The notes under the pieces are model-generated. The model saw only the letters and a program-made list of their open reading frames with translations, searched no databases and was not told where the DNA came from. Source: Asanoa iriomotensis (GTDB taxonomy: Bacteria; Actinomycetota; Actinomycetes; Mycobacteriales; Micromonosporaceae). Taken from it: a DNA stretch of 64,000 nucleotides. A program made the translations under genes and the position numbers. How positions within the stretch are numbered: the first letter of the stretch is position 1; every line of letters begins with the position of its first letter. The DNA lies in contig NZ_BONC01000023.1 of assembly GCF_016862515.1 (NCBI RefSeq), positions 1-64,000 of the forward strand, in the 5' to 3' direction. Below are positions 50,104 through 64,000 of the stretch, in pieces.

Positions 50104-50580
50104 CTACGATTGCCCTCGTCGGAGCAGGTCCCGGGCTCGGCGCCGCCGCCGCGCGGGCGTTCGGTGCCCGCGGTTTCAGCATCGCTCTGATCGCCCGCAA
50201 CTCGGAGCGCCTCGACAAGCTCACCCTCGGCCTTGCTGACCGAGGACTGACCGCACGCGGCTGTCCATCAGGTGTTGCCCGAGATGCGGCAACTCGGACG
50301 AGGGACGGTGTTGTTCGTGAACGGCGGTAGCGGCGCCCGACCCAACCCTAAGGTCGCCGGAACGTCGGTCGCTTTCGCAGGCGAAGGTGCGCTCGCCAGG
50401 ATGCTGCACGAGGTTCTCCGCGACGAGAACATCCATGTCGCACAACTGATCGTCCCTGGCGCGATCACCCGCGGCCACCCCACGCACGACCCGGACGCGC
50501 TGGCCGCCACTCTCTGGCAGATGCACACCGACCGCGAAGACTTCCGCGTATTTGCCGAGCCGATGGACATCCCCACCTGA
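50100..50580 (+). pseudogene. Short-chain dehydrogenase with internal deletion and frameshift
   Basis: The frame starts normally (TTIALVGAGPGLGAAAARAF, ALIARNSERLDKL) and stops matching at about 50262. The C-terminal part continues in another frame from there (VLPEMRQLGRGTVLFVNGGS, FAGEGALARMLHEVL, HVAQLIVPGAI) to the stop at 50580. About 80 central residues, including the usual YxxxK region, are missing. Inactive remnant of an SDR coupled to the XRE regulator. Confidence 0.8.
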
Positions 50581-51362
50581 CCACGACCCCGAACGTGGCA
50601 CGTACCCGCAGGCCGGACGCGGCTATCGGTTCACCCACGCTCGGTGAAGTCAAGGCATCGTCGTGGCGACAGTTGCCGTCGGGCTCTCGTTCGCACTACG
50701 CGCTCGGGAACCCAACACGCCGCCTTAAAAGCCTGACCGCGACGATGAGGTGCCTCAGCACCTCGCAAACGCGGAGCCCGGATCGGTGCCGTATCTAGGA
50801 AGTCGAGCTGACACCAGTCGTTCGGCGCCTGCGCCCGACGCGTCGGCGAAATCCCCCGGCTGGAGCAAGCGACCCTTCTGCGGTGGTTCGAGTTCGTGAG
50901 CCGCGCGAAGTTGACCGTCGACGCCGCTTGAAGGCGCTGTCGCCGCAAAGCGTCTGAGTTACGTCGCCAGGCGACTGCCCGGCGGCCCTCACGAGCCATA
51001 CGGTTAGGCGTGCGCCTGGTGGGTGCTCAAGGGCCGGAAGCGATAGTAATCCCGGATCGGCTGGAGCCGGTGCGGCGCGCGACAGCCGGTAAGGGCCCAG
51101 GCAACGCGGGCCTGCGATTTTGCAGAGGGTGCCACCTTTGCCGCGCCGGACCCGACCACCGCCCTACCAGCTCGGCTCTCTATCCAGCACGCCGCGCAGA
51201 TTGACCATCCTGCAGCGCTTGCTTTCGGGGCCTTGGCGCTGGTTCGGCGCTGCGTTCACTATGGACCCTCGTCGGTCCGGCCAGCCCGGGCGGACGGCCG
51301 GTCGGCGGAGCCACCTGCTCGTTCGACCGACGGCGGCTGCCACGGTTATGCACAGAAAGGCA
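50581..51362. other. Gene-free interval
   Basis: Only unrelated overlapping ORFs without families or ribosome sites. A small 7-bp hairpin (GAGGTGC/GCACCTC, around 50744-50761) is the only structure noticed. Confidence 0.45.
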
Positions 51363-52250
51363 TCATCGGTTACCTATGGACGAGACGCTAAGGTGCTTCT
51401 CGAAGCAGAGCTGGTTGTACGGTGAGCTGAGGTAGGCCGGGATCTCCTGGTATCCGGACCCGCGGTACAACGCGATAGCTTCGCCGAGGCTGCGGTGGGT
51501 GCCTAACCGGAGGGTGCCTATGCCGTGCGTGGCCGCGTCGGCCTCGATGCCTTTCAGCAGGCGCCGGCCGAGACCGAGGCCGCGGCTAGCTGGGTGGGTC
51601 CACAAGTGACGGACTTCGGCGATGCCGGGTGCCAGTCTGACCCACATGCCGCAGCCGACTGGTCGGTCCTGCTCGCAGGCGAGAATGAGGGTCTCGTCGA
51701 GATCGTCGGGCCGCGTCAATGTGGACTCGTCGTAGCCCTCAGGAAATCGCTCGACCAGCTCTGCAGCGTACTGGCGCAGGCACTGACGCGCTCGCGCATC
51801 GTCAGCGGGAGCGGGGGCGATTGTGATGGTGGCCAACCGCAGGAGCCGCTGGACCTGACGTTGCGCAGCCACCAGCTCGTCCTGCTGATTGGGACTGAGA
51901 CCGGCGAGTAGAGCGGCGACTGCGGCCCGGCAACGCTTGTCGAGGGCGGCTCGTTCCTGGAGGCCCGCGTCGGTGAGTTGCACAATTCCGGCCCGCCCGT
52001 CGGCAGGGTCCGGTGCGATGCGCACCATGTCCTGCTTCTCGAGAGTCCGCAGCAGGCGGCTCAGGTATCCGGAGTCGAGGCCGAGGCGGTCACGCAGATC
52101 CCGCACGCCGACACGGCCACGGATCTCCCAGAGCAGCCGGGCCTGCCCTAACGGCCGGTCGAGGCCGAGGTACTGGTCGGTTAGTAGCCCCAGCAGCTCG
52201 CTGTAGTACTGGTTGAACTCCTGCACCCGTTCGATCACGTCGGTTCCCAC
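51363..52250 (-). CDS. MarR-GNAT fusion protein
   Basis: 295 residues from the GTG at 52250, chosen because the protein then begins at the MarR helix VIERVQEFNQYYSELLGLLT; the longer frame runs into the YCII gene. Residues 1-140: MarR winged helix (VRDLRDRLGLDSGYLSRLLR, LEKQDMVRIAPDPADGRAG). Residues 150-295: GNAT acetyltransferase (VRHLWTHPASRGLGLGRRLL with the acetyl-CoA loop RGLGLG). Such fusions are common in actinomycetes. The upstream gene ends inside a 20-bp palindrome that is a likely operator. Confidence 0.92.
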   Translation of the reverse strand: MGTDVIERVQEFNQYYSELLGLLTDQYLGLDRPLGQARLLWEIRGRVGVRDLRDRLGLDSGYLSRLLRTLEKQDMVRIAPDPADGRAGIVQLTDAGLQERAALDKRCRAAVAALLAGLSPNQQDELVAAQRQVQRLLRLATITIAPAPADDARARQCLRQYAAELVERFPEGYDESTLTRPDDLDETLILACEQDRPVGCGMWVRLAPGIAEVRHLWTHPASRGLGLGRRLLKGIEADAATHGIGTLRLGTHRSLGEAIALYRGSGYQEIPAYLSSPYNQLCFEKHLSVSSIGNR

Positions 52251-52257
52251 GCCGCTG

Positions 52258-52653
52258 CTATTTCTGACCCGGGTCAGAAAATTTGGGCCCGAAGTGTAGT
52301 TCGCCGGTCGTCGAAACCCGACGAATCTCGCACTTCGCCCCGGGTATCGACGGCAGCCTCCTGGCCCACTCGACGGCCTCGTCGCGTGAAGACACATCGA
52401 GCATCCAAAAGCCCTCAAACAGTTCCGGCGTCTTCCCGTACGGCCCGTCGGTCACGACTCGCGTGCCGCCGCCGAGGTCGACCACCGCGCCATCTGCTGG
52501 GTCGCCCAAGACTTCGGCCGCGACCATGACACCTGCGCGGATCATCTCTCGGTTGACCCTTCCCACGGAGGCGAGCATCTCGTCGAGTGGGGTTTGGACC
52601 ATCGTCTGGCGGGTCTGGTCGGTGCCACGCAGGATGAGCAAGTATCTCGCCAA
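52258..52653 (-). CDS. YCII-related protein
   Basis: 131 residues from a TTG at 52653, with AGGGAG about 8 bases upstream, starting LARYLLILRGTD; the longer frame has low-complexity arginine/serine sequence. Ferredoxin-like YCII fold (VVTDGPYGKTPELFEGFWML, DEAVEWARRLPSIPG). Such proteins are common partners of ECF sigma factors, but none is nearby. Its last codons form the 20-bp palindrome before the MarR-GNAT gene. Confidence 0.85.
   Translation of the reverse strand: MARYLLILRGTDQTRQTMVQTPLDEMLASVGRVNREMIRAGVMVAAEVLGDPADGAVVDLGGGTRVVTDGPYGKTPELFEGFWMLDVSSRDEAVEWARRLPSIPGAKCEIRRVSTTGELHFGPKFSDPGQK
52261..52280. promoter_or_regulatory. 20-bp perfect palindrome, candidate MarR operator
   Basis: TTTCTGACCCGGGTCAGAAA reads the same on both strands. 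It encodes the last residues of the YCII protein and ends 10 bases before the GTG of the MarR-GNAT gene, so it could bind MarR or fold in the mRNA at the ribosome site. Confidence 0.6.
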
Positions 52654-53098
52654 TGTCTTCTCCCTCTCGACGTCACGGCTGTTCGAACTCGATGACGTGC
52701 CCTGCCCTGACTCTTCGCGATGCACATCGCCCGGTCGGCGTTGTGCAGGACGTCTGACGACGTCAGGCGGCCGCCGAATCCGTGATCGCCAGACCCGAAC
52801 TCGCGCTGACCCACAGGTCCGCACCGCACCGGATGACGGCGCGTGGCAACGCGAGCGGCGTCAGAGCCACCATCAGCCGCAACGGCATCCCCAGCCGATA
52901 ACGAAGCCGCGCTTTCGGATCGGTCCTCGAGTTCATGAATAGACGGTAGGAAGCCGCCCGCTCCGGCACATCCGCCCGCAAGCGTCACCCTCCTGAGCGG
53001 CCGTCGCTTGAAAGCGACATCACCGACGCTCGTCGACGTACGCGGGAAGGCGTTTCTGCTCATACGGTTCGAACAAGCGACGACAGAAGGGACACGAC
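52654..53098. other. Gap with a GGDEF-domain relic
   Basis: On the minus strand at 52684-52762 the frame reads DVLHNADRAMCIAKSQGRAR, which matches the C-terminal end of GGDEF domains; the GGEEF active site is absent. A 57-codon minus ORF (52936-52763) follows it without recognisable family. A short stem (GTCGCT/AGCGAC) lies near 53006-53021. Confidence 0.45.
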
Positions 53099-53290
53099 AT
53101 GACGGCAGTAGGCAAGCGAAGCACCGCGCTGGTCGTCGATGTCGGCCTGAGCGCTCTGATCGTCGAGGCCCGAGTCCAGTGTGGACGTCAACTGGTGGTG
53201 GTTGACATTCAGGACGGTTCCCTCAACGTCTACGCCGGCCCGCGCGGATGGCCGATTCGTGCGACCCTTTCGGCGAGGTCCGCGACGTGA
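53099..53290 (+). pseudogene. Collapsed histidine kinase remnant
   Basis: 63 codons. The N-terminal part (STALVVDVGLSALIVEARV) resembles a kinase membrane start, and the end (GSLNVYAGPRGWPIRATLS) resembles the last strand of a HATPase_c domain (GG..xAGPRxGGWxVRAxLP). The whole middle is gone. Its TGA overlaps the GTG of the response-regulator remnant (GTGA), the normal kinase-regulator junction. Confidence 0.55.
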
Positions 53291-53935
53291 TCCGACTGCT
53301 TGTCGTCGACGACCAGGAGCTCGTCCGGGCTGGCCTTCGGGCACTCGTCGAGAACACCGACGACATCACCGTGGCTGGTGAAGCCAGGCACGGCCGCGAA
53401 GCACTGACACAGGGACGCAGGCTGCGACCTGACTTGTTCCTGATGGACCTGAAGATGCCGGTCATGGACGGAATCGCCGCCACGGCCGCGATCCGGACCG
53501 ATCCAACGCTGCGAGACACCCCGGTCCTCATCCTCACGACCTTCGACGATCAGGACGATGTCCTCGGCGCCGTACGCGCGGGAGCGACCGGCTACCTCCT
53601 TAAAGACATGGAGGCGGACGCGCTCCGCGCGGCCGTCCGGACCGCCGCCGCGGGTGAGTCGCCTGTCACGCCGTCCGTGGCAAAGCAGATGATGACCCAG
53701 CTCGCCCGCCTCTCGTCGCGCCCAAACCGCAGCCAGGAACTGGCTAGCCTCACCGATCGGGAGCGAGATATCCTCGCGCACGTCGGCCGCGGTCTGTCCA
53801 ACGAGGAAATTGGACGCGCATTTTCTTGAGCCCCGACACCGCGCGTACCTATGTGGGTCGCCTGTTGACCAAGCTCGCGGCACGTAATCGGGCCCAGCTG
53901 GTCGTGCTGGCACATCGCGCGGGGCTGGTGGACTA
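53287..53935 (+). pseudogene. NarL-type response regulator broken by a frameshift
   Basis: From GTG 53287 the receiver domain is intact (RLLVVDDQELV, LFLMDLKMPVMDG). The HTH begins (LTDRERDILAHVGRGLSNEE, IGRAF) and stops at a TGA at 53829. The rest of the HTH continues in another frame (LSPDTARTYVGRLLTKLAAR, then stop at 53935). The break falls in the TTTTC run near 53821, so a one-base deletion or a sequencing error explains it. Confidence 0.85.
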
Positions 53936-54124
53936 ACTGCGCGGATTGGCGAACAGCCGCGTCGCGTCGTCAGGGTACGGGCGGAGCTCACCTCGTCCCG
54001 CCTGTCAGAAGCGGCGGGAGCTGCGTGTGTCCCGCTCTGCACAGGTGGATGGCCCGAAATGCAGACCCGCCTCGATCGCCTTTGGACGTACACGCCCGTC
54101 GCGGCCCGATGTTTGACTTGCCTG

Positions 54125-54868
54125 ATGGATCGTCAACTGCTCAGCAGCATCGCGCACACCCACCATCCGATCGCGGCTCCGATTTCCGAGGTGAACGTCA
54201 ATAGGCTCCTGCACCGCACTAACCGGGACCCGGCGGCGCGTGTTCTCGATCTCGGCTGTGGTGAGTGTGCGTGGGCGTTGCAGGCGCTGGCCCACTTCCC
54301 CAGCGCGCATGCTGACGGGGTCGACGTCAGCCGGTACGCCCTTGGCCGAGCCCGCGCCGCCGCAGCCGAACGCGGCCTCGCCGACCGGCTGACGCTGCAC
54401 GAACGCGACGCGCGCGAATTTGTGTCAGACCGCGCCTACGACTTGGTGCTCTGCGTCGGGTCGACGCATGCCTTCGGGGGATTCGCCGGAACACTAGAGA
54501 TGGCTGACCGATACGTTCGTTCCGATGGCGTCCTGTTGATCGGCGAGAGCTTCTGGCAGGTTCCGCCGACGCGAGCCGCCTTGACGGCGCTGAACGCCAA
54601 CGAACAGGACTACACCGACCTCGCCGGCCTGATCGACCTGGCCGAAAAGGTCGGCTGGAGTCCGGAGTACGCGCATGTCTCCGACGCCGCCGAGTGGGAT
54701 GACTACGAATGGTCCTGGACCGGCTCGCTCACGAGCTGGGCTCTCGACAACCCCGGCCATCGCCACTCGGCAAAGGCCCTGGCTGTCGCCCGGGAACACC
54801 GCGATGGCTGGCTGCGGGGGTACCGCGGCGTCCTGGGCTTCGTGACCTTGGTGCTGCGCCGCGGATGA
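54125..54868 (+). CDS. SAM-dependent methyltransferase (class I)
   Basis: 247 residues from ATG at 54125. SAM-binding motif VLDLGCGECAWAL, with later YDLVLCVGSTHAFGG and GVLLIGESFW. Class I Rossmann fold; substrate unknown. It lies upstream of the peptide-operon regulator but a 415-base gap separates them, so membership is unclear. Confidence 0.88.
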   Translation: MDRQLLSSIAHTHHPIAAPISEVNVNRLLHRTNRDPAARVLDLGCGECAWALQALAHFPSAHADGVDVSRYALGRARAAAAERGLADRLTLHERDAREFVSDRAYDLVLCVGSTHAFGGFAGTLEMADRYVRSDGVLLIGESFWQVPPTRAALTALNANEQDYTDLAGLIDLAEKVGWSPEYAHVSDAAEWDDYEWSWTGSLTSWALDNPGHRHSAKALAVAREHRDGWLRGYRGVLGFVTLVLRRG

Positions 54869-55283
54869 CATCGCCGCGAGTGCTCAGGTTGTCACAGCGA
54901 AGGGGATCCGACGAGCTATGCGCTCGCCGCTCTCGGCGACTTCTTCACGGGCTGATCGATCCAGCGCCGCCCGGCGTCGCTCGTCGACGTAGGCAACTCT
55001 GAAACCTGTCGCTCACAAGCGACAGCGACGTATGTCTCCTCGCCGATAAATTCGGCGAACGCAACGAGTCACCGATTCACGCGTACTCGAATCATGCTGG
55101 CTAGCTTCACGACCGCAGGCGATGCGTTTGGCGAGCCAGCTCAGGTGCGCACGATGCCCGGCGTCCTGGCCGTGCGGGTCCTGACGTCATTCCGGACGCC
55201 ACACCGGTTCCCCGTTCCCGGTGTGGCGTCCCCTGCGCACCGGGGTTTGCGCGAGCAGTCGAGAGCACCCGCGAGGAAACTTC
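54869..55283. other. Control region upstream of the SARP gene
   Basis: No gene. Two short hairpins: CTGTCGCT/AGCGACAG at 55006-55025 and CGCCGA/TCGGCG at 55041-55057. They may be operators or attenuators of the regulator; the first resembles a weaker stem near 53006. Confidence 0.4.
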
Positions 55284-57080
55284 ATGCGATTCAGGATCTT
55301 GGGTTCGGTTCAGGCAGCGATCGGCGATCAGCCGCTCCACCTAGCCAGACGCCAGGTGCGGTTGATGCTGGGGTTGCTCCTGCTGGAGCCTGGACAACCC
55401 GTCGCGGTCAGGCGGCTGGCGGACCTGTTGAGTGGCGATCGGCCTCCGCAGAATCCTCGAGCGGTCGTCCAGACCACGGCCGCGCGGCTGCGCCGCGCGC
55501 TGGCGCCCGGCGGGTCCGCGGTCCGGCTGATCAGGCTTGGCGAGGGTTACGCGCTGCGAACCGACCCGAACAACGTTGACGCGTACCGGTTCCGCGAACT
55601 GCTTAACCGCGCTCGCGCCGAGCCCGATCCGGAAGGTCGTGCCCGGCTGAGTCGTCAAGCGCTCGGACTGTGGCGCGGTGAGCCGCTCGGAGACGTCGCG
55701 TCCGACGAGCTACGAAATCGGACGGCAGGGTTCCTGGTGGAGAGCCATCGGCAGTTGATCGAGCTGCGAATCGCGGCGGAGTTGGAGCTCGGCCGTCATG
55801 AGGAGCTGGCGGTCGAACTGAGCCGGCTGATCGAGCTCCATCCGTGCGACGAGCAATTGACACGCCACCTCATGGTGGCGCACTACCTCGGTGGTCGTCG
55901 CCAGGACGCGCTGAACGCCTACCGTCGCCACCGGAACACGATGACCCAGGAGCTGGGCCTGGATCCTGGTGCGGAACTACGGGAACTGGAGAGCGCGATT
56001 CTCCGCGGGGACCAGTTGGCCTCTCTGCCAACCGTCGTGTCCCCCGCGGACCTGTCCGAACCGTCTCGCCCGGCCGAGGATGTGCGACAGTCACGCCGCA
56101 CCATCCGGGCATTGCCCGCCGTGACCGCGGACTTCGTTGGGCGGGAGGCCGAGACGAGGAGCCTCTGCGAACGGGTCGCCGGCGCCCCCGGCGTCCAGGT
56201 GTTGGCGATCAGCGGCGTGCCCGGCGTCGGCAAGAGCGCCTTCGCCCTGCGGGTGGCTCATCTGCTCGCGCCGCGGTTCCCACGAACCCAGCTCTACCTG
56301 GATCTCCTCGGGGACGCCAGGCCGCTATCCAGCATGGCAGCGCTTGGTCGACTCCTGCGCATGCTGGGTGTGCCTAGTGCGGACATCCCCGCCGAGCAGG
56401 GCGAACGGGCCGCGATGTATCGGGCTGAGGTCGCTGACGGCGGCTGCCTGCTGGTGCTCGACAATGCGTCGGCGGCGGCCCAGGTGCGCCCGCTTCTGCC
56501 GGGCTCCGGTGCCGTCGTCGTGGTGAGCAGCCGCCGAATGCTGACGAACTTGGACGGCGCCCACCAGCAACGCTTATCACCGTTGACCGCGCCGGAGGGG
56601 GTCCGGCTGCTGGCCGGCATCGTCGGCCAACACCGTGTCGAGTGTTCCCAGGACTCCGCGCGCGCGGTGGTCGAACGATGCGGCCTGCTCCCGCTCGCGA
56701 TTCGGCTCTTTGGCGCCCGGCTCGCCGAGCGGGTGCATCTCACGCTGGCCGAGGCGAGTGAGCAGCTTGCCGAGGCGGACGATCGGCTCGACCTGCTTCG
56801 ACACGCGGACCGCGATGTCCGGACCGGCCTTCTGTCCACACTGCGGACGGTCGATCCCACGGCTCAGCTACTACTGCGCACCATGGCCGCGCTGGACGTG
56901 GAACGTTTCCCGGCCGCGCTCCTGCGCACGCTTTCCGCGGCGGAGGGAGCGGCCGTCGACGCGGCCATCGCCGAGCTCGTCGAGGCGAACTTGGTCGAGC
57001 CTGACGGAAGGGACCCGTTCGGCGAGTTCTCGTACCGCCTCCACGAGCTCGTTCGGCTGGTCGCGCTGGAGCCCCGCTAG
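55284..57080 (+). CDS. SARP-type regulator with NB-ARC domain (AfsR-like, no TPR tail)
   Basis: 598 residues from ATG 55284 (GAGG upstream). Residues 1-85: OmpR-type winged HTH (MRFRILGSVQAAIGDQPLHL). About 90-240: BTAD domain (NNVDAYRFRELLNRARAEPD, DALNAYRRHRNTMTQELGLD). About 275-590: NB-ARC with P-loop GVPGVGKS at 311-318 and LLVLDNASAAAQVRPLLPGS. Full AfsR proteins add a TPR domain (about 950-1000 residues); this one stops after the ATPase and winged-helix part. SARPs activate secondary-metabolite operons; the genes 62 bases downstream are the likely target. Confidence 0.93.
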   Translation: MRFRILGSVQAAIGDQPLHLARRQVRLMLGLLLLEPGQPVAVRRLADLLSGDRPPQNPRAVVQTTAARLRRALAPGGSAVRLIRLGEGYALRTDPNNVDAYRFRELLNRARAEPDPEGRARLSRQALGLWRGEPLGDVASDELRNRTAGFLVESHRQLIELRIAAELELGRHEELAVELSRLIELHPCDEQLTRHLMVAHYLGGRRQDALNAYRRHRNTMTQELGLDPGAELRELESAILRGDQLASLPTVVSPADLSEPSRPAEDVRQSRRTIRALPAVTADFVGREAETRSLCERVAGAPGVQVLAISGVPGVGKSAFALRVAHLLAPRFPRTQLYLDLLGDARPLSSMAALGRLLRMLGVPSADIPAEQGERAAMYRAEVADGGCLLVLDNASAAAQVRPLLPGSGAVVVVSSRRMLTNLDGAHQQRLSPLTAPEGVRLLAGIVGQHRVECSQDSARAVVERCGLLPLAIRLFGARLAERVHLTLAEASEQLAEADDRLDLLRHADRDVRTGLLSTLRTVDPTAQLLLRTMAALDVERFPAALLRTLSAAEGAAVDAAIAELVEANLVEPDGRDPFGEFSYRLHELVRLVALEPR

Positions 57081-57142
57081 TCGGTGGAAGTCAGACGGAA
57101 CGCGAGTGGAAAGTCGTTGGCACGATCACCGCCCCATCCTCT

Positions 57143-58324
57143 GTGGCAGTAACGCCTTTCTTCCCGGAGGTTGTCGACGTGCTGCCCCAGCTCAAGGACG
57201 TGGCCTGGAAAAGGTCCGGTGCCGACGTCCAGGTCGTGTACGACCTGCGTGAGTCCTTCGTCGTCACCGATGCCAACGGCACGTTCGAGACGCTTCTCGA
57301 ACTGCTCCGGGAGGGTGGCCGCGGGATCGAGGAGCTGGCCGCGGCCCTGTCCCAGCGCAGCGGCCGCGAGGTGCCGGTCGACGACGTCGAGGCCGCGATC
57401 CAGGCGCTGGACGGTCACCGCCTCCTTCAGAACGGCGAGCGACTGGGGCGGCCGGGCGATACAGCCAACGATCGGCACTACTCGAACGTCGCCTTCTTCG
57501 AGTCGTTCGCCACGCTGGCGCGCAGCAACACAGACCTGCACTCGCGGATACGCCGTAGCCATGTACTCGTCCTCGGCACCGGCGGGCTCAACTCGACCAC
57601 CATCCCGCATCTTTGCGGCCTCGGCGTCGGTCGACTGACGCTGACCGACCGGGACGTGGTCCAGCCACGCAACTTCGCCCGCCAGTACCTCTACCGGTGG
57701 CGCGACCTGGGCCGAAGCAAAGTGGACGCGGCAGCCGGCTGGGTGCGGGAATTCGACCCGGACGTCCGGGCGCGGGCGATAACGGCAAGCATCGATGGAC
57801 CGACCGACGTTCTCAGGCTGCTCGACGAAGTCGCGCCAGACATCGTCATGTCCGGCGTGGACAGTCCCGACGGCGTCGACGACTGGGTCGACGGGGCCTG
57901 CGTGACAAGGGGCGTGCCCTACGTCCGCGCCGGGCTGTGGGTCACCCAGGGCATCGTGTGGTCGGTCGACCCTGGCCGGAGCGCATGCCGTGGATGTGTG
58001 CGGATCACCGCCGAGGAGGCCCGGGCAACAGCCGTCGACGACTCCGCGCTCGCGTTGGCGGGTATGGACCTGTTTCGGGCCAAGCCCCGGACCAACCGGG
58101 CCATCGGTCCGGTTGCCGGTCTCCTCGGGTCGTTGGCGGCGTTCGAGGTGGTCCGCTACCTCACGCGGTTCGAGTCGCCGGTGTACGCAGGCAACCCGCT
58201 CGAGGTCGACTTCGCCGCCGGTTGCGCCATGCGAACGGTGGCCTGGCGCAGGAACGCCGGGTGCGCATGTGCAGCCACCACTGTCGGCAGCCAGCCACGC
58301 CCCACAGCGGATGCGGCCGGCTGA
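57143..58324 (+). CDS. E1-like ThiF-family adenylyltransferase with RRE-like N-terminus
   Basis: 393 residues, GTG start. Residues 30-110 (YDLRESFVVTDANGTFETLL, VPVDDVEAAIQALDGHRLLQ) look like a PqqD/RiPP recognition winged helix. Residues 135-390 are a ThiF/E1 domain: GTGGLN at 145-150, LTLTDRDVVQPRNFARQYLY, and a Cys pair (CRGC) plus CAC near the C-terminus as in E1 zinc sites. Such enzymes adenylate a peptide carboxylate, as in MccB, TOMM cyclodehydratase partners and the pantocin enzyme PaaA. With two tiny peptide genes nearby it is the probable key modifying enzyme. Exact reaction unknown. Confidence 0.88.
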   Translation: MAVTPFFPEVVDVLPQLKDVAWKRSGADVQVVYDLRESFVVTDANGTFETLLELLREGGRGIEELAAALSQRSGREVPVDDVEAAIQALDGHRLLQNGERLGRPGDTANDRHYSNVAFFESFATLARSNTDLHSRIRRSHVLVLGTGGLNSTTIPHLCGLGVGRLTLTDRDVVQPRNFARQYLYRWRDLGRSKVDAAAGWVREFDPDVRARAITASIDGPTDVLRLLDEVAPDIVMSGVDSPDGVDDWVDGACVTRGVPYVRAGLWVTQGIVWSVDPGRSACRGCVRITAEEARATAVDDSALALAGMDLFRAKPRTNRAIGPVAGLLGSLAAFEVVRYLTRFESPVYAGNPLEVDFAAGCAMRTVAWRRNAGCACAATTVGSQPRPTADAAG

Positions 58325-58356
58325 CCTAGCCACGGCAAGCGAAAGGAGGCGAGAGA

Positions 58357-58428
58357 GTGAAGATCGAGATTCGGCGTGTCGAAAGCGCGCGGCTGACCGC
58401 GAACTTCCCAGGCCCCACCGACACCTGA
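58357..58428 (+). CDS. 23-residue peptide, candidate precursor or leader peptide
   Basis: GTG at 58357 has AAAGGAGG 7 bases upstream, the best ribosome site in the operon. The 23-residue product begins MKIEIRRVESARLT and ends FPGPTDT. A very strong hairpin follows 24 bases after the stop. Placed right after the ThiF-like enzyme and before the M50 protease, a RiPP precursor is the leading idea; a regulatory leader ORF is the alternative. Peptides this small are usually missed by gene finders. Confidence 0.55.
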   Translation: MKIEIRRVESARLTANFPGPTDT

Positions 58429-58451
58429 CGAAGGCGCCGGCGGGCAACAAC

Positions 58452-58489
58452 GGTGGACGGCCCTGGCTGCGATGGCCAGGCCGTCCACC
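58452..58489 (+). terminator. Strong hairpin, probable attenuator between peptide and protease genes
   Basis: 11-bp perfect outer stem (58452-58462 with 58479-58489), then a single-base bulge and a further 4-bp stem around a 7-base loop. It would reduce read-through from the 23-codon ORF to the downstream enzymes, a common way to make more precursor than enzyme. Confidence 0.65.
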
Positions 58490-59758
58490 CCGAAATCCTG
58501 GGAGGTTCTCATAGGCGAGCAATCAGAGACGAGCGCGGAGGTGCCGGCGACGGTGCGGTTGCTCGTGATCGCCCCGGACGGCGACGAGTTCATCCTCGGC
58601 CGGAACGACCTCGGCGTGTACGTCGCGGTGCCTGAGCCTGGCGCCGTGTTCGTGCGTGCGCTGCAGGACGGTTGCTCGCTGGCGGATGCGACCGCTCGGG
58701 CTGGCGCGACGGCGGGGGCCGAGGTCAACGGAGGTGAGTTTCTCGACGGTCTCCGGGCGGCGGGCCTCCTTGACCGCCAGCGTGCCGGCGGCACGTCGCA
58801 GACTGCCGAATCGGCGGACGGCGACGGACGTTCGATCCGCTGGTTCGAAGGAATCAGTCCGCGGACCGCGCGCGTCTTCTTCGGCCGGCCGGCCTGGGCA
58901 TTGTATGTCGGCGCCGCTGTGGCCGCCGCGATGGTGCTCGCGACGCGGCCCGCGTTGCGGCCCTCCTACAGCCACGTGTGGTGGCTGCCTGACCCTTTGC
59001 TCTCCCTGGTGACGTACGTGCTGCTGGGTTTCGTCCTCGCCGCCCTCCACGAGGTGTGGCATTGGCTGGCCGGGCGGTCCGCGGGTGTGCCCGCGGCTTT
59101 CCGCATCAGCCGGCGCGGTGCCTATCTCGTGTTCGAGACGGACCTCAGCCAGATTGTCACCGTCAACCGGACGGCGCGCTATGGCCCGTTCCTGGCCGGC
59201 ATGGCGTTCGATGTCACGGTTCTGGCCGGCGCGCTCGCGGCCCGGGCCGCCTACGGCTCCGGCGTCGTGGAGATCCCACCTTCGCTCGACCGCCTGCTTG
59301 CAGCGGTCGTGCTGGCGCTGGTCATCGGGATCGTGTGGCAGTGGTCGGCGCTGTTCCTACGCAGCGACGGGTACGCCGTGCTGGCGAACGCGCTGAGATG
59401 CCACAACCTCTTCAGAGCCACCGTGCTGACGACGAAGTGGCGGATCTGGGGTCTGTCGGGCGAGGAAGCGGCCGAGTTCGGTGCGATCGGTCCGCGCGAC
59501 CGCGCCGTCGCCCGCTGGTTCGGGCTCGTGTATCTGCTTGGGATGATCGGCACGTTGTGGGCCATCCTCATTTTCGCGCTCCCCTTCCTGCTGTCGACGG
59601 GCGCCTGGGTCAGTGCCAACCTGGCCGCCTACTCGCTCTCCTCCGTCGCGTTCTGGGAGTCGCTCGCTGTACTCGTCTACCTCGTGGCCGGCGTTGTCGG
59701 GCCGGCCGTCATCGCATGGCGCGAACGCCGGCTGCGGCGGGCAGGAGCATTGCTGTGA
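58472..59758 (+). CDS. PqqD-like domain plus M50-family membrane metalloprotease
   Basis: 428 residues from ATG 58472. That ATG sits inside the loop of the preceding hairpin with no ribosome site; GGGAGG then leads with 5-base spacing to ATA at 58511, where the protein would start IGEQSETS, so the true start may be there or at a later GTG. N-terminal about 90 residues: PqqD-like winged helix (FILGRNDLGVYVAVPEPGAV). Then about seven membrane helices with the M50 zinc motif HEVWH (His193) and the third-ligand loop FLRSDGYAVLANAL. Site-2-protease-like enzymes of this shape mature or export RiPPs (YydH-type). Probably removes the leader peptide. Confidence 0.85.
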   Translation: MARPSTPKSWEVLIGEQSETSAEVPATVRLLVIAPDGDEFILGRNDLGVYVAVPEPGAVFVRALQDGCSLADATARAGATAGAEVNGGEFLDGLRAAGLLDRQRAGGTSQTAESADGDGRSIRWFEGISPRTARVFFGRPAWALYVGAAVAAAMVLATRPALRPSYSHVWWLPDPLLSLVTYVLLGFVLAALHEVWHWLAGRSAGVPAAFRISRRGAYLVFETDLSQIVTVNRTARYGPFLAGMAFDVTVLAGALAARAAYGSGVVEIPPSLDRLLAAVVLALVIGIVWQWSALFLRSDGYAVLANALRCHNLFRATVLTTKWRIWGLSGEEAAEFGAIGPRDRAVARWFGLVYLLGMIGTLWAILIFALPFLLSTGAWVSANLAAYSLSSVAFWESLAVLVYLVAGVVGPAVIAWRERRLRRAGALL

Positions 59759-60312
59759 TGACTCATCCGCACCGCTGGTGGTGGCGGATCGCGACCGTTC
59801 TAGCGGTCGGGGCCGCGGTGGCCACAGTGTCCGTCGGGCCCTGGCGCGTCTACGGCAGGGCGACCAGCGCTACGGCCGACACCGACCCGCCGTCCTGTCC
59901 GGTCGGCGAGACGCTGCCCATCATGGACAGCCCGCACATCAGCCAGGCGGAGGCGTCCGACGTCCGGTACTCGTCTGAGCCTCCGACATCGGGACCGCAT
60001 TTCCCCTTTACCGTCACGCCTGGTGTCTACGAGGACTCGGTGCCTGACGCGTTGATCGTGCAGGCGCTGGAACTCGGTGATGTAGCGGTGCTCTACGCGC
60101 CGGCGACTCCGCCTGATCTGATCGGCAGCATGCGGCGGTTCGCCCGCACCCACCCGGCCGATGTGGTGATGGCGCCACATCCTGGCGTCCACAAGGGCGT
60201 CGCGCTGACGGGGTGGGGCTGCCTTCTGCGAATGTCAATGTTTGACGAGGCAACGGCCACGCTGTTCGTTACGCAGGTGGCCGGGCGATATGTGCATGGC
60301 TGGGCGCGGTAG
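59758..60312 (+). CDS. DUF3105 membrane-anchored protein
   Basis: 184 residues. The ATG overlaps the protease TGA (TGATG), with an alternative GTG three bases earlier, so the genes are coupled. One N-terminal signal-anchor helix, then the DUF3105 core (EPPTSGPHFPFTVTPGVYED, VQALELGDVAVLYAPATPPD). Relatives usually keep a second His in HALEHG, replaced here by QALELG. Function unknown. Its place in the operon suggests a role in peptide export, immunity or assembly. Confidence 0.85.
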   Translation: MTHPHRWWWRIATVLAVGAAVATVSVGPWRVYGRATSATADTDPPSCPVGETLPIMDSPHISQAEASDVRYSSEPPTSGPHFPFTVTPGVYEDSVPDALIVQALELGDVAVLYAPATPPDLIGSMRRFARTHPADVVMAPHPGVHKGVALTGWGCLLRMSMFDEATATLFVTQVAGRYVHGWAR

Positions 60313-60471
60313 ACGTTGTTCGCCTCTCGACGTATCCGGCGACCCGAAGAAACGCTCCCCGGCGACAGCGGCGACAGGACGTTCCTGTCTAGCGTCGTGG
60401 CTGAGCACATCGGGGCCGGAGCCGCAACGCGGCGGACGACGAGAAGTGGAGTGGTAGCCGTGGGAGGATCC

Positions 60472-61002
60472 ATGACGGCGACGAGGCGCGAACCAGCCGA
60501 GTCGCTGACCGAATCACTGATCAGCGCCCGCATGTGGGACCTGCTCCGTGAGGAGTTCCCCGACCGGTCGCCGGCGGCGCTCGGTGTGCAGGTCGAGGAG
60601 TGCTTGAGGTTCCTGAGCATCGCGTCCGAGGTCGGCGGGTGCTTCATCCCGCTGAGCAAGGAGATCGACGAGATCTGGCACGCCCTGGTGGTGCAGACAC
60701 GCTCGTACGCGCAGCTATGCGAGCGGCTGCCAGGCAAAGCCTTCGTGCACCACGAGTCGTTGAAGCTGTCCGCGTACGCAGAAACGGTCGGGCGGTCGGC
60801 GGCGGTGCGCGAGTTTGTCGCCTGGATCCCGCGGTACGTCGGCCGCTTCGGGGACTTCACCGAGGAGCGCGCGCAGTACTGGCGCGTGTGCACATTTCTC
60901 CGCGTCGAACTCGGCCTGAGCTTGCGGGAGATCAACGAGATGGGTCGGCGCATGGCCGCCGGCAACGACAACCAAGAGGAGGAACACCGTGTCAGCGTCT
61001 GA
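60472..61002 (+). CDS. DUF1399/GRDP-like conserved protein
   Basis: 176 residues from ATG 60472, with GGGAGGA upstream. The core KEIDEIWHALVVQTRSYAQL, then FVHHESL, resembles the DUF1399 / glycine-rich-domain-protein pattern (DxxWHxhxxdTxxYxxxC...fxHH). The conserved His residues could bind a metal. No catalytic role is known. Its stop lies inside the 41-residue peptide ORF (14-base overlap), so it is part of the operon. Confidence 0.7.
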   Translation: MTATRREPAESLTESLISARMWDLLREEFPDRSPAALGVQVEECLRFLSIASEVGGCFIPLSKEIDEIWHALVVQTRSYAQLCERLPGKAFVHHESLKLSAYAETVGRSAAVREFVAWIPRYVGRFGDFTEERAQYWRVCTFLRVELGLSLREINEMGRRMAAGNDNQEEEHRVSV

Positions 61003-61114
61003 GGAAACTATGACGACGGAGAAGCTCGAGAAGCTCATCGAGGCCCGCTACTTCGAGCGGTTCATCAAGTTCGGTGACGAGTTCGACTTCTGCTGGGGCT
61101 TTGTGGAGCGGTGA
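60989..61114 (+). CDS. 41-residue peptide, candidate RiPP precursor
   Basis: GTG at 60989 with AGAGGAGGAA upstream. Leader-like N-terminus rich in Glu/Thr/Lys (MSASEETMTTEKLEKLIEAR), then an aromatic end (FIKFGDEFDFCWGFVER) that holds the only cysteine and tryptophan. Start overlaps the previous gene; stop overlaps the flavoprotein GTG (GTGA). Translational coupling to both neighbours implies a function tied to them. The acidic leader plus aromatic tail is typical of RiPP precursors; a small enzyme subunit is the alternative. Confidence 0.6.
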   Translation: MSASEETMTTEKLEKLIEARYFERFIKFGDEFDFCWGFVER

Positions 61115-62481
61115 CCATCGTCGGGCCACGCTCCCACTCCCGGTGGGGTGCCAGGCTGGCCGATGCTCGGGCCCAGGAGGCGTTGCGTCTCCTGGGCCCG
61201 GACCCCGCCAACTGGGTGACATCCTCGACCGGCGTCGACCGTGACGTTGCCGTCGTCGGCGGCGGCCAGTGCGGCGTCACCATCGCGTTCGCTCTGCGTC
61301 GAGCGGGCATCCCGAACGTCACCGTGGTGGACGCGGCTGATCCAGCGGACGTGGGTGGCTGGCGGACCACGGCGCGCATGCGGGTGCTGCGAACGCCCAA
61401 GGACCGCTCAGGCCCCGAGATCGGCATCCCCGCGCTCAGCTTCCGGGCATGGTACGAGGCCGTGCACGACGTCGACGCCTTCAGCGCGATCGACAGTATC
61501 GCGCGGACCGATTGGGCCGACTACCTGACCTGGTTCACGAGTCAGGTCGGGGTCGGTGTTCGACACCGAACCCGCCTCACAGACATCGAACCCGCTGACG
61601 GAAACCTGCGTCTGCACCTGGTCCACGACGGGACAGCGCGGCTGGAGACCGTTCGTAAGGTGATCCTCGCCAATGGGGTCGAGGGCACGGGCGGCCCGTT
61701 TCTGCCGCCCGCGATCAGCGCGCTTCCACGCCACCTTCACGCACACACCGCGGACCGGATCGACTTCGACCAGCTCGAAGGGGCCTCGGTCGGAATCCTC
61801 GGATCGGCGTCGTCGGCGTTCGACGCCGCTGCCACGGCACTTGAGGCGGGCGCGGCGGAGGTCCATCTCTTCTGCCGGCGACCGGAGCTGGTCATCGCGC
61901 GGCCGAACGGGACCTCGCCGCATCCCGGCGCCGACGAGGCCTATCACCTGCAGTCCGACGAGTACCGATGGGCAACATGGATGCGCGCGCACCGTGGCGG
62001 CGCCAGCGTGCCGGCGGAGGCGGTGCGACGGGCCACCATCCATGATGGATTCCGGCTTCATGTCAACGCCGGATGGCGAAGTGTCCACAGTGATGGCGGC
62101 CGAGTGCGTGTCGAGGCCGACGACGGGACATACCGGTTCGACTTCGTCATCGCCGGCACCGGTTACCAGTACGACCCGCACACGCGTCCAGAGCTGCGCC
62201 GTATCGCCGGCGACATCGCACTGTGGCGGGACCGCTACCTGCCCGCCGCCGGAGCCTCGTCTCGGCTGAACGCCTATCCGTACCTGGGGGCGGGATACGA
62301 GCTGTGTGAGAGGCGGCCCGGCACGGCGCCATGGATTGCGGACGTGCACTCGTTCAGCGCCGCGGCCAGTCCGAGCTTCGGGCGAGTTGTCGGTGACATC
62401 CCGAGCCTGAGCGCCGGCGTCCCGCGGCTCGTGCGAGCGATCGTCCGCGACTTCTATCGTCCGGGCCTGCCGGAGCGGTGA
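61111..62481 (+). CDS. FAD-dependent monooxygenase-like protein
   Basis: 456 residues from GTG 61111. FAD-binding GGGQCG at 50-55 (VAVVGGGQCGVTIAFALRRA), second dinucleotide motif VGILGSASSAFDAAATALEA, and a FMO/BVMO-like FVIAGTGYQYD. Immediately follows the 41-residue peptide. Probably oxidises the peptide (hydroxylation, epoxidation or decarboxylative steps); this is inference from position. Confidence 0.88.
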   Translation: MTIVGPRSHSRWGARLADARAQEALRLLGPDPANWVTSSTGVDRDVAVVGGGQCGVTIAFALRRAGIPNVTVVDAADPADVGGWRTTARMRVLRTPKDRSGPEIGIPALSFRAWYEAVHDVDAFSAIDSIARTDWADYLTWFTSQVGVGVRHRTRLTDIEPADGNLRLHLVHDGTARLETVRKVILANGVEGTGGPFLPPAISALPRHLHAHTADRIDFDQLEGASVGILGSASSAFDAAATALEAGAAEVHLFCRRPELVIARPNGTSPHPGADEAYHLQSDEYRWATWMRAHRGGASVPAEAVRRATIHDGFRLHVNAGWRSVHSDGGRVRVEADDGTYRFDFVIAGTGYQYDPHTRPELRRIAGDIALWRDRYLPAAGASSRLNAYPYLGAGYELCERRPGTAPWIADVHSFSAAASPSFGRVVGDIPSLSAGVPRLVRAIVRDFYRPGLPER

Positions 62482-62484
62482 GGC

Positions 62485-63468
62485 CTACCTGTCTCGCAGG
62501 AGGTCCGACAGGAGCGACCACGAGACATTGCTGCCTGACAGCAGTACACCAACGAGGCCATCGACCAACCCGTCGGCCACGTCGGCCTTCACTCCGGCGA
62601 CGGCGATCGCGCCGGCCGGTTCGACGATCACGCGCAGGTCGCGTGTAACGGCCGCGAGTGCGGCCAGGGTCGCGTCGTCACTGACTGTCCTGACCCGTGC
62701 GCCGGCCGAGCTGATGATCCGAAGGTTGAGCTCGCCTGGCATCGGCGCGGTCAGTGCGTCCACGATCGTGCCGGTGCCCCGATGACTGACTGGGCGGCCG
62801 GCGTCGAGCGAAGCTGCCAGCGTCGCTGTGCCGGCGGGCTGCACGCCCATCAGTTCGATGTGCGGGGCCAGTGCCTGCGTGACAACGGCGGCGCCGGCCA
62901 ACAATCCGCCTCCGGAGCACGGGACGTAGAGCCGGGTGAGGTCGGGGCATTCCGCTAGGAGCTCGAGAGTCGCGGTGGCCGCGCCGGCGACCACCATCGC
63001 ATCGTCGTAGGGATGGACAAACGTCAGGCCCCGGGCCCCGACGAGACGCCGGGCGAGATCGAAGGCCGCGGCCGCGTCGTGGACACCGTTGGTAACGACA
63101 CTCGCGCCGAGGGCAGCGGCGGCCGCCTGCTTCTCGCGTACGGACGACTCGGCCATGACCACCGTCAGGGCGCAACCGTGGACCTGGGCCGCGTAGGCGG
63201 CGCCCAGCGCGGCGTTGCCGGCGCTCACGGTGATCAGCCCGCGGTCCTGCTGGGCCTGGTCGAGTGTGCGGATCCGATTGAGCGCCCCGCGCACCTTGAA
63301 ACTTCCGGTTACTTGCAGCGACTCGGCCTTGGCCAGGATCGGCACACCCACCCAGCTGTCGAGGATGCGGGACCTGAGCACGGGCGTACGCACGACGTGG
63401 GGCGCCAACGCCGTCGCCGCTTCGTAGACGTCGGCGAGGCTTGGGTCAGATGGTGGCAGCGTCGACAC
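62485..63468 (-). CDS. PLP-dependent threonine/serine dehydratase-family enzyme
   Basis: 327 residues. PLP Lys58 in GSFKVRG; SAGNAALGAAYAA and glycine loop CSGGGLLAG, typical fold-type II. It lacks the C-terminal ACT domain of biosynthetic threonine deaminase, so it is a catabolic dehydratase or racemase type. Convergent with the flavoprotein gene (3-base gap) and transcribed with the phosphoesterase (23-base overlap), so probably outside the peptide operon. Confidence 0.9.
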   Translation of the reverse strand: MSTLPPSDPSLADVYEAATALAPHVVRTPVLRSRILDSWVGVPILAKAESLQVTGSFKVRGALNRIRTLDQAQQDRGLITVSAGNAALGAAYAAQVHGCALTVVMAESSVREKQAAAAALGASVVTNGVHDAAAAFDLARRLVGARGLTFVHPYDDAMVVAGAATATLELLAECPDLTRLYVPCSGGGLLAGAAVVTQALAPHIELMGVQPAGTATLAASLDAGRPVSHRGTGTIVDALTAPMPGELNLRIISSAGARVRTVSDDATLAALAAVTRDLRVIVEPAGAIAVAGVKADVADGLVDGLVGVLLSGSNVSWSLLSDLLRDR

Positions 63469-64000
63469 TGTAAACCAGCTTCCCGGCCCACGGGTCGCGG
63501 GCTGTCAGTGTGTAGGTCATTGGTGCGCTTTCGGTTCCGAGTTCGACGATCGAGGCTCGCGGGCCCAGCACCGCAGTGAGTTGCGTCGCCCTGCCCGCCA
63601 GGTCGATGCGCGTAACGATGCCAGGTGCGACGTGCACGGGCACCCCACGCAGACTCCCGGACATGTCGTGATGGACATGTCCGCAGAGCACGGCGCGCAC
63701 GTCCCTGGCCGCGACAGCGTCGGCGAGGGCCGCGGGATTGCGCAGCAGCAGGCGCGACAACGGGTGCCGTTCGAGCGCGATCGGGGGGTGGTGCAGGGCG
63801 ACGATCGTGCCGCGAGGCGCGTGCGTCTTGAGTAGATCGCGGAGCCACTCGACCTGGTCGGGTTCGATGAGGCCGTGGCCGGAACCGGGCACCAAGGTGT
63901 CCAGGGTAACGACCCGCAGACCCGCGATCTCGCTGACGGCCGCGCACGCGCCGGCGGGACCGCGGCCGGTGGCGACGTCATTGCCGTCTGCGCCCAGGTG
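63446..64000 (-). CDS. Calcineurin-like metallophosphoesterase (N-terminus outside window)
   Basis: The last 184 residues are visible. Metal ligands in LHHPP and CGHVHHD (GHxH motif) mark the cyclic-nucleotide-phosphodiesterase-like class, with LRVVTLDTLVPGSGHG. The segment where GNHD is expected reads DGNDVATGR, so the His may be changed. It overlaps the dehydratase by 23 bases. Confidence 0.85.
   Translation of the reverse strand, partial: HLGADGNDVATGRGPAGACAAVSEIAGLRVVTLDTLVPGSGHGLIEPDQVEWLRDLLKTHAPRGTIVALHHPPIALERHPLSRLLLRNPAALADAVAARDVRAVLCGHVHHDMSGSLRGVPVHVAPGIVTRIDLAGRATQLTAVLGPRASIVELGTESAPMTYTLTARDPWAGKLVYSVDAATI

Follow-up and report, generated by a model that had tools for sequence, protein, structure and literature searches.

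A candidate ThiF-M50 RiPP cluster adjoining a second peptide module in Asanoa iriomotensis

Overview of the locus

Within a stretch of 64,000 nucleotides from Asanoa iriomotensis (contig NZ_BONC01000023.1, positions 1 to 64,000; hereafter the window), the genes between positions 55284 and 62481 look like two adjoining peptide modules rather than one operon. The first, module A, comprises a SARP-type regulator, an E1/ThiF-like adenylyltransferase, a 23-codon precursor gene (peptide A) and an M50-type membrane metalloprotease, and is best read, from its genes, as an undescribed branch of the ThiF-type ribosomally synthesized and post-translationally modified peptides (RiPPs). That module A is a small RiPP cluster, and that module B is a second peptide module adjoining it by chance, is considered probable. 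A first-pass annotation had described the interval as a single RiPP-like operon; all the genes that it named are present, on the + strand and in the order given, and Pfam backs the families of the SARP-NB-ARC, ThiF, DUF3105 and flavin proteins. Its RiPP-like system of E1/ThiF enzyme, short peptide and M50 protease is borne out, in that ThiF homologues elsewhere adjoin a related peptide and an M50 gene. The features of module A are as follows.

55284..57080, + strand: SARP-type regulator with BTAD and NB-ARC domains (Pfam BTAD 2.6e-33, NB-ARC 6.4e-7)
57179..58324, + strand: E1/ThiF-like adenylyltransferase with an extra N-terminal domain of putative leader-docking type (Pfam ThiF 1.8e-39)
58357..58428, + strand: precursor peptide A, VKIEIRRVESARLTANFPGPTDT, 23 codons with a GTG start and a strong Shine-Dalgarno (SD) sequence, AAAGGAGG; leader VKIEIRRVESARLT, core about ANFPGPTDT (inferred border)
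58452..58489, + strand: hairpin after peptide A (folding z -1.8)
58472..59758, + strand: M50-type membrane metalloprotease (HEVWH, D299) with an N-terminal domain of putative leader-docking type (by motif and homology)

Eight window proteins, from 54.1 to 63.5 kb, were scanned against Pfam and NCBIfam, and open reading frames (ORFs) in loci fetched from relatives were called by script, without a gene finder. Because the genome searches scored at most 4 to 9 first-look candidates per genome, their counts are lower bounds. An initial scan of contigs with a single-protein query found no relative.

Recurrence of module A in other genomes and plasmids

The ThiF protein found a match at E<=1e-20 in 11 of 296 genomes of the class, and a match better than 1e-40 only in its own genome and three others. 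At the three best outside loci, ThiF is accompanied by an M50 gene in G131 (57% ThiF identity) and G046 (38%), and by an MFS gene in G168. A profile scan of named genomes returned 80 loci, the best seven of which are treated here as close loci (four Nonomuraea, Actinophytocola xinjiangensis and two Microbacterium); the other 73 were weaker, and eight of these were used in the tree only. A small ORF bearing an SD sequence lies by the ThiF gene in all seven. Overall, a candidate peptide was found by ThiF in 27 of 28 loci. Fourteen of these peptides have the leader type of the window (L016, L018-L022, L173, L208, L209 and L211-L215), 11 have a related leader (L128, L181, L182, L184, L187-L192 and L210) and two, both from Microbacterium, a different one (L023 and L024). 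The 28 loci are not independent, since they include six near-identical Streptomyces plasmid cassettes and several near-duplicate pairs.

Sets of ThiF, peptide and M50 genes in which a like leader is joined to a variable core occur in Nonomuraea (5 records), Actinophytocola, G046, G681 and six Streptomyces plasmids, and more divergent sets in other actinobacteria and in Priestia koreensis. Among plasmids, tblastn detected ThiF relatives in 33 records (20 of them Streptomyces) and M50 relatives in 22 (20 Streptomyces), and both genes were present in eight of the nine plasmid regions examined. Four annotated Streptomyces plasmid records give the order BTAD regulator, 'ThiF family adenylyltransferase' and 'hypothetical protein' (the M50 protein); the peptide ORF is unlisted in their gene tables, which are incomplete. 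On the Priestia koreensis plasmid, a 21-residue peptide, MKKIVVRKLATVTVPQLRPGT, is encoded three times in tandem, without variation, ahead of ThiF (L210:3000-3276), and the genes after ThiF encode an OppA-like protein (below the NCBIfam cut-offs), an M50 protease and an annotated MFS protein. An MFS gene (Pfam MFS_1) likewise adjoins ThiF in the two Microbacterium loci, where the low GC content at third codon positions (GC3, 0.71-0.73) of the ThiF genes suggests recent transfer.

Precursor peptide A and its hairpin

Relatives of peptide A were found in Nonomuraea sp. (VKIEIVRVESTRLTGNICMAS), N. harbinensis and N. glycinis (MKIEIVRIENTRLTVDADPGSDS), N. deserti (VKIEIKRVENTRLTQLIHPDS), N. gerenzanensis (MEIKVKKVESVKATQNPAT), Actinophytocola (VTIEVRKVESVKSTQHPDS), G681 (MKIEVRKVEAVKATQFMT), the six Streptomyces plasmids (MEIKVRKVEDVKATGLQV) and G046 (MKITVVKVERIEATRIHLDPDAGGA); the leaders of the Microbacterium peptides MSFTVNRVPTDKKISWGII and MAFTVNRVPTDIKVSWGVI differ from that of the window. 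Peptides of the closest branch begin with a similar stretch of 14 residues, the last of which is Thr, and then diverge over the remaining 4-9 residues (11 in G046). A leave-one-out scan was made of the eight closest-branch loci, that is, the window and seven of the 28 ThiF loci, with every small ORF of 14-60 residues on both strands scored against a matrix built from the leaders of the other members. The ThiF-side ORF came top in all eight, with scores of 26.8-40.0 against 11.7-17.0 for the runner-up. Over 13 leader codons, the window differs from each of four Nonomuraea by 3-5 synonymous and 2-4 amino-acid changes, whereas the cores, compared ungapped and position by position, show no synonymous and 6-8 amino-acid changes. 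This pattern suggests that the leader is conserved at the protein level and the core free to change, as in RiPP precursors.

Both the 23-codon ORF and the hairpin after it that the first-pass annotation had noticed are present. In the window, the 60 bases that follow peptide A were compared with those behind 16 other ORF stops (50001-64000) and fold the most stably of all, and in the first eight loci compared a long stem follows the peptide in every case (z -1.6 to -4.2), with stem sequences that differ. The comparison was extended to 32 loci, 23 with ThiF (window included) and nine with M50 only. In 25 of the 31 with controls, the post-peptide stretch falls within the most stable 10% of the 60-base ORF-stop stretches of its locus; the remaining locus, L210, is without controls and weakly folded. 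In some genomes the peptide gene precedes ThiF, in others it separates ThiF from M50 or follows M50, and the peptide, its SD sequence and usually the hairpin are retained despite the changing gene order. Family and PDB searches gave no match for peptide A, nor for the candidate peptide of module B (peptide B).

The ThiF and M50 enzymes

A start of the ThiF gene at GTG 57179 is likelier than one at 57143, owing to the SD sequence GGAGG and to agreement with homologues. The best matches of its profile among solved structures are, in order, MccB (E 4e-34), MoeB (1e-33) and PaaA (9e-33). The PaaA alignment begins at profile position 28 and that of MccB at position 64, so that both extend into the extra N-terminal domain, whereas MoeB aligns from position 118, with the catalytic part only. 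Residues of the ATP site (G133, G135, G136, N165, R168, Q169, K181 and D228) are invariant in eight ThiF sequences and aligned with MccB/PaaA. C270, C273 and C362, three of the four Cys of what we take to be a zinc-type site, are likewise invariant in eight sequences. In a midpoint-rooted tree of 54 catalytic domains, with coarse R/H labels for the loci, the window protein falls in a clade with Nonomuraea, Actinophytocola, G046, G681, N. gerenzanensis and the Streptomyces plasmids, and Microbacterium stands next to it. The protein of L013, a locus labelled H, groups with the peptide-linked L182.

The protease had been called a 'PqqD-like/M50 protease', and the two halves of that name fare differently. 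Since the protein has no match in Pfam, NCBIfam or the PDB search, its assignment to M50 rests on H193-E194-x-x-H197, D299, hydrophobic stretches (judged by eye) and homology; H193, E194, H197 and D299 are invariant in seven aligned sequences (window included), and the homologue of L016 has a sub-threshold Peptidase_M50 match (E 0.07). PqqD, for its part, is unmatched in the window proteins by Pfam, that of ThiF included; it is backed by weak hits in two ThiF homologues (E 0.15-0.17) and by profile comparison. When the N-terminal domains of 21 ThiF and 28 M50 sequences were compared by hhalign, the pairing reached 84% (E 7e-6, 72 columns, 13% identity), against 0.14-0.42% probability for three control pairings. 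These results support, without proving, the presence of a leader-docking (RRE-type) domain on both enzymes. The ATG at 58472 lies within the hairpin and is without an SD sequence, while a strong SD, GGGAGG (58500-58505), is positioned for an ATA at 58511, where close relatives have ATG; this ATA may be the true M50 start.

When 394 genomes of the class were searched with a profile built from seven M50 proteins, 17 of them gave matches, at 25 places in total, a lower bound with four candidates scored per genome. Twenty of these were examined; of the other five, four were already known and one is a partial hit. ThiF adjoins M50 in 11 of the 20 places, and ten of the 11 have a peptide with an SD sequence and a leader of related or similar type, such as KITIRLLDKIETTNASNSVGN. 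The other nine are without ThiF, and each has a peptide of like leader type, such as MKKIKIRKAGPVRLTAAACSIYKKPS (by eye). Peptides of like leader type, MKKIVVRKPGTVRLTAMACYCYGCCCCGGRAAI among them, were seen in the M50-without-ThiF loci L174-L180, L183, L185 and L216. In several ThiF-less loci a protein of ~700 residues follows M50; it contains tetratricopeptide repeats (TPR) by Pfam in all three that were scanned (L174, L177 and L179) and by annotation in L216. The M50-without-ThiF loci thus appear to be a sister peptide family with another modifier.

Predicted pathway and its closest alternative

From these genes a five-step pathway can be proposed. The SARP regulator, to judge from its repeated position, would switch module A on. 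Peptide A would then be made in excess over the enzymes, since it has its own strong SD sequence and a predicted hairpin after it; a terminator that separates mccA from mccB is reported to have this effect in microcin C (PMC6495379). The leader (KIEIRRVE...) would dock as a β-strand on the N-terminal domain of ThiF, a domain recognized by profile only. With the reactions of MccB, PaaA, GrcB, EnfB and IndF as guide, ThiF would consume ATP and adenylate the carboxylate at the C-terminal Thr of the core, ANFPGPTDT, and a core nucleophile, a small amine or a nucleotide would take over, to give a C-terminally closed or capped peptide. Finally, the membrane M50 protease, with the same type of docking domain, would cut near the conserved Thr at the end of the leader and yield a short product, as the paired domains and the proteases TglG, TmoG and EpeP suggest.

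Several points weigh against this account of module A as a separate RiPP branch. Its product, its expression and the activity of its enzymes are all predictions from the genes, and the window's module A holds no exporter. Two of the 28 ThiF loci, those of Microbacterium, carry another leader, and L186, on a short contig, has no recognizable peptide; moreover, the peptides outside the leave-one-out loci were chosen by eye from small ORFs, nearly all of which have an SD sequence. In leader codons, Actinophytocola differs from the window by 4 synonymous and 6 other changes and from Nonomuraea by 1-2 and 7-9, so that the sign of leader selection is clear only among nearer relatives. The hairpin is middling in L018, L024, L181 and L174 (14-20%) and missing in L188 and L189. 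In the tree, the support joining the window clade with Microbacterium is only 0.46, and the peptide-linked ThiF proteins do not form one clade, a DUF6879-linked group standing apart. Lastly, peptide A ends in Thr and is without the C-terminal Asn of MccA, the Cys of GrcA or the Trp..Ile of IndA/EnfA, and accordingly no known ThiF product is simply transferable to it.

The alternative that survives best, possible though unlikely, is a microcin-C-like outcome, in which ThiF would join AMP or CMP to the C-terminus of peptide A to form a Trojan-horse peptide-nucleotide and M50 would trim the peptide part. The two systems have in common an E1-like enzyme with an N-terminal domain and a tiny peptide gene that has its own SD sequence and is directly followed by a hairpin, a feature reported for mcc (PMC6495379). 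MccB is also the best solved match, MFS genes lie by ThiF in Microbacterium and in the annotated Priestia cluster, and among ten more distant peptides the C-terminus is ...GN in seven, Gly in two and Ser in one. The differences lie in the peptide and in the partner genes. MccA usually has seven residues, and in the main MccB clade it is reported to end in Asn (PMC6495379), whereas peptide A has 23, with a leader common to its relatives, and ends in Thr, its close relatives ending in Ser, Thr, Ala or Val; plain membership of microcin C was rejected on this C-terminal residue. The hairpin of the window precedes M50, not ThiF, and in place of an MFS exporter the window has M50, together with a SARP regulator. 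No MccC-type MFS exporter was found among the eight proteins scanned, and no MccC-, MccD-, MccE- or MccF-like gene in module A by Pfam or NCBIfam.

One system or two

Downstream of M50 lie DUF3105 and the genes of module B.

59758..60312, + strand: DUF3105 protein, overlapping the M50 stop (Pfam DUF3105 3.1e-22)
60472..61002, + strand: 'GRDP-like' protein, module B (without Pfam match; homologue neighbourhoods)
61010..61114, + strand: candidate precursor peptide B, MTTEKLEKLIEARYFERFIKFGDEFDFCWGFVER, module B (GC3 0.94; alternative start GTG 60989, 41 residues)
61111..62481, + strand: flavin monooxygenase-like enzyme, module B, overlapping peptide B by 4 bases (Pfam Pyr_redox_3, NAD_binding_9, Lys_Orn_oxgnase)

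The first-pass annotation had placed these genes in the same system as ThiF. The 28 ThiF loci contain no tblastn match at E<1e-3 to DUF3105, the GRDP-like protein, the flavin enzyme or peptide B, and the eight GRDP loci contain none to ThiF or M50; the ThiF loci are 6.4-20 kb and the GRDP loci 9-20 kb long, so that distant partners would be missed. DUF3105 is likewise unmatched in the ten M50-only and eight GRDP loci. On this co-occurrence test, one operon for one product was rejected, and the simplest reading of the genes is of two neighbouring modules, with DUF3105, assigned to neither, overlapping M50 here but not seen with it elsewhere.

One hybrid pathway, in which ThiF would activate the end of peptide A for coupling to peptide B, or to a molecule cleaved from peptide B, and the GRDP-like and flavin proteins would act in tailoring, is improbable. 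It would agree with the placing of all the genes on one strand, with the overlap of DUF3105 and M50, and with peptide B being wedged, in overlap or near-contact, between the GRDP-like and flavin genes. It is opposed by the mutual lack of matches and by the 159-bp gap between DUF3105 and the GRDP-like gene. A further point in its favour, and against two modules, is a Pyr_redox_2-type flavin oxidoreductase ~0.4 kb from the Microbacterium K24 peptide. Its match to the flavin enzyme of the window is weak, covering 29-37 residues (E 5e-5 and 4e-4), and is not in the E<1e-3 co-occurrence set. In L187, an FAD_binding_3 gene lies some 5.5 kb from M50. By these scores, neither the Microbacterium flavin gene nor that of L187 is an orthologue of the window's enzyme.

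The regulator and remaining alternatives

By tblastn, 13 of the 28 ThiF loci have a relative of the SARP regulator at a distance of 0.1-1.7 kb from the ThiF match (four Nonomuraea contigs, Actinophytocola, G681, N. gerenzanensis and the six Streptomyces plasmids), and a SARP match was found in 4 of 10 M50-without-ThiF loci. This recurrence, along with very short and variable cores and a module A without exporter or evident immunity gene, would suit a processed signalling peptide that ThiF caps, M50 releases and the SARP/NB-ARC regulator senses. Such a role for peptide A is thought doubtful at best: ordinary biosynthetic clusters are commonly activated by SARPs, 15 of the 28 loci, mostly divergent ones, gave no SARP match by tblastn, and no direct link between peptide and regulator is seen.

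It is barely credible that ThiF is an ordinary sulfur-carrier E1 of MoeB/ThiF metabolism beside which the peptide lies by chance, for although its catalytic domain matches MoeB/ThiF models and MoeB is its second-best solved match after MccB, all 22 listed NCBIfam scores are below cut-off (adenyl_thiF 98.9 against 275.25 bits, moeB 64.9 against 376.55), the protein has the extra N-terminal domain and the conserved peptide, and the second ThiF-like gene of the genome falls in a separate clade (15 sequences, support 0.999). A housekeeping E1 was rejected on the NCBIfam scores and the clade of this second gene. The neighbourhoods of ThiF homologues, which the first-pass annotation had named as the check, thus agree with it for peptide A and M50, and ThiF stands outside the clade of the genome's other ThiF-like gene.

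Upstream of module A, the palindrome GTCGCT-N4-AGCGAC occurs in two exact copies (53003-53018 and 55008-55023), one upstream of a response-regulator ORF and one upstream of the SARP gene. There is no further match in the 64 kb at <=1 mismatch; 0.57 were expected, and two or more appeared in 12 of 100 shuffles. The copies are possibly a shared operator, and the palindrome was found in none of 216 other loci. The ORF in question, of the LuxR type (53248-53938), has an early stop near its DNA-binding part, and the remainder seems, by eye, to be encoded in a different frame. Immediately ahead of the SARP start stand a small Cys-containing ORF without a good SD sequence (55122-55184; by eye) and then a perfect 14-bp stem (55194-55231), which is possibly an attenuator, or chance.

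Module B

The 'GRDP-like' name is without Pfam support and remains the label of the first-pass annotation; the protein has no Pfam or NCBIfam match, and a PDB search was without result. Relatives occur in 9 of 394 genomes of the class (window included; a lower bound), and in each of the eight other loci a RiPP-like small peptide lies within 2.5 kb of the GRDP-like gene. In two of them MTIEEIKDLVTDSIENDENETLSEYAKNCWADIK, or a near copy, stands just upstream. Six (L148 and L203-L207) have a peptide of 39-54 residues with two to three K-x-G-C-I-S repeats, near an AMP-ligase-like gene. The AMP-ligase-like gene of L204 has NCBIfam matches below cut-off, and Pfam is blank for it in L204 and L205; the one K-x-G-C-I-S peptide scanned has no NCBIfam match, and the GRDP-like protein of L148 no Pfam match. 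A low-GC3 island at L147:9394-16161 encodes a 34-residue peptide ending in NCWADIK and a GRDP-like protein. It also holds a RiPP-type B12 radical SAM C-methyltransferase (TIGR03975, 614 bits), a MatE transporter and, by eye, aminotransferase-like and flavin-like genes, and looks like an undescribed RiPP cluster.

The 41-codon ORF of the first-pass annotation exists (60989-61114) and overlaps the flavin gene, with ATG 61010, for 34 residues, as the more likely start. Among 645 small ORFs of the window, peptide B is the best match to the GRDP-linked peptides of L147 and L202, by modest margins (23.5 against 17, and 22.5 against 20.5). A likeness to the K-x-G-C-I-S peptides was rejected, peptide B ranking 502 and 155 of 645. 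The flavin enzyme has three homologues (38-41%) in 246 genomes, on contigs of 4.5-11.7 kb; these contigs gave no match to the other window proteins tested (GRDP-like and ThiF included), save a weak SARP match in one. Module B may have a product of its own, or it may serve to tailor the product of module A.

Relation to known systems and significance

RiPPs of the E1/ThiF type are already described, namely microcin C, pantocin A, GRC, enterofaecin and Ind (PMC12250964, PMC12150305), and the claim that the locus fits no known class must be narrowed to that extent; the unusual features of module A are its M50 partner, a precursor family from actinobacteria and cores of very short length. The known ThiF RiPP enzymes are reported to adenylate a carboxylate that various nucleophiles then attack (PMC12150305, PMC12250964), M50 proteases are reported for pearlins and epipeptides (PMC10885120), and a survey reports 27,400 RRE-ThiF candidates (PMC12150305), which may well include proteins of the window type. 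No paper naming the combination of ThiF, short peptide and M50 was found in the open-licence part of PMC, and in the main text, so far as available, of PMC12250964, PMC12710340, PMC7470986 and PMC13381572 the word M50 is absent.

Pantocin A (PaaA) and GRC (GrcB) share with module A a ThiF-type enzyme with an N-terminal domain, that of PaaA being aligned from position 28. The pantocin core is Glu-Glu-Asn, which peptide A lacks, as it lacks a Cys for a Glu/Cys thiolactone. Enterofaecin (EnfA/EnfB) and Ind (IndA/IndF) are alike in having a short precursor with a leader (21 residues in EnfA) and a ThiF enzyme with an RRE, which in the window is putative, and their reported leader motif (V/I)RKA is reminiscent of IEVRKVE (PMC12250964). 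They differ in that the window core ANFPGPTDT has no Trp or Ile end, a C-terminal Trp..Ile being present in two Microbacterium relatives, and in that IndP is an M16 protease whereas that of the window is M50. These Microbacterium peptides (L023:4279-4338 and L024:7775-7834) end in SWGII and SWGVI, with the W-x-x-I spacing reported for IndA, NWYFI (PMC12150305), and because of this spacing an indolylamide ring in them is a testable guess. The pearlin (TglG, TmoG) and epipeptide (EpeP) proteases are, as reported, membrane M50 enzymes that act on a ribosomal peptide (PMC10885120); that of the window differs in that it seems to carry its own docking-type domain. No radical SAM protein was detected by Pfam or NCBIfam among the eight window proteins scanned, nor any peptide-aminoacyl-tRNA ligase (PEARL).

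More broadly, and with rather less confidence than in the reading of module A itself, it may tentatively be proposed that these loci belong to an unrecognized RiPP superfamily built on one chassis: a K-[IL]-x-[IV]-R-x..-T leader, an M50 protease with a docking domain and often a SARP regulator. On it the modifiers would swap, being ThiF/E1 in some loci and, with peptides such as MKKIKIRKAGPVRLTAAACSIYKKPS, the ~700-residue TPR protein in others. The products of the closest branch would be only 4-11 core residues long, and the GRDP-like protein of the window would mark another undescribed group of peptides, characterized by a ..NCW.. end or by K-x-G-C-I-S repeats. Two features bear on how modifiers are exchanged in RiPPs: the modifier and the membrane protease have matching docking-type domains, and a similar leader is used again alongside the TPR protein. 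From one activated carboxylate, E1/ThiF enzymes yield products as diverse as a phosphoramidate, a thiolactone, an indolylamide and an imide, and a separate ThiF branch with its own precursor family is thus a likely source of new chemistry. As the set is tiny (enzyme, peptide and protease), module A could be tested in vitro in one experiment.

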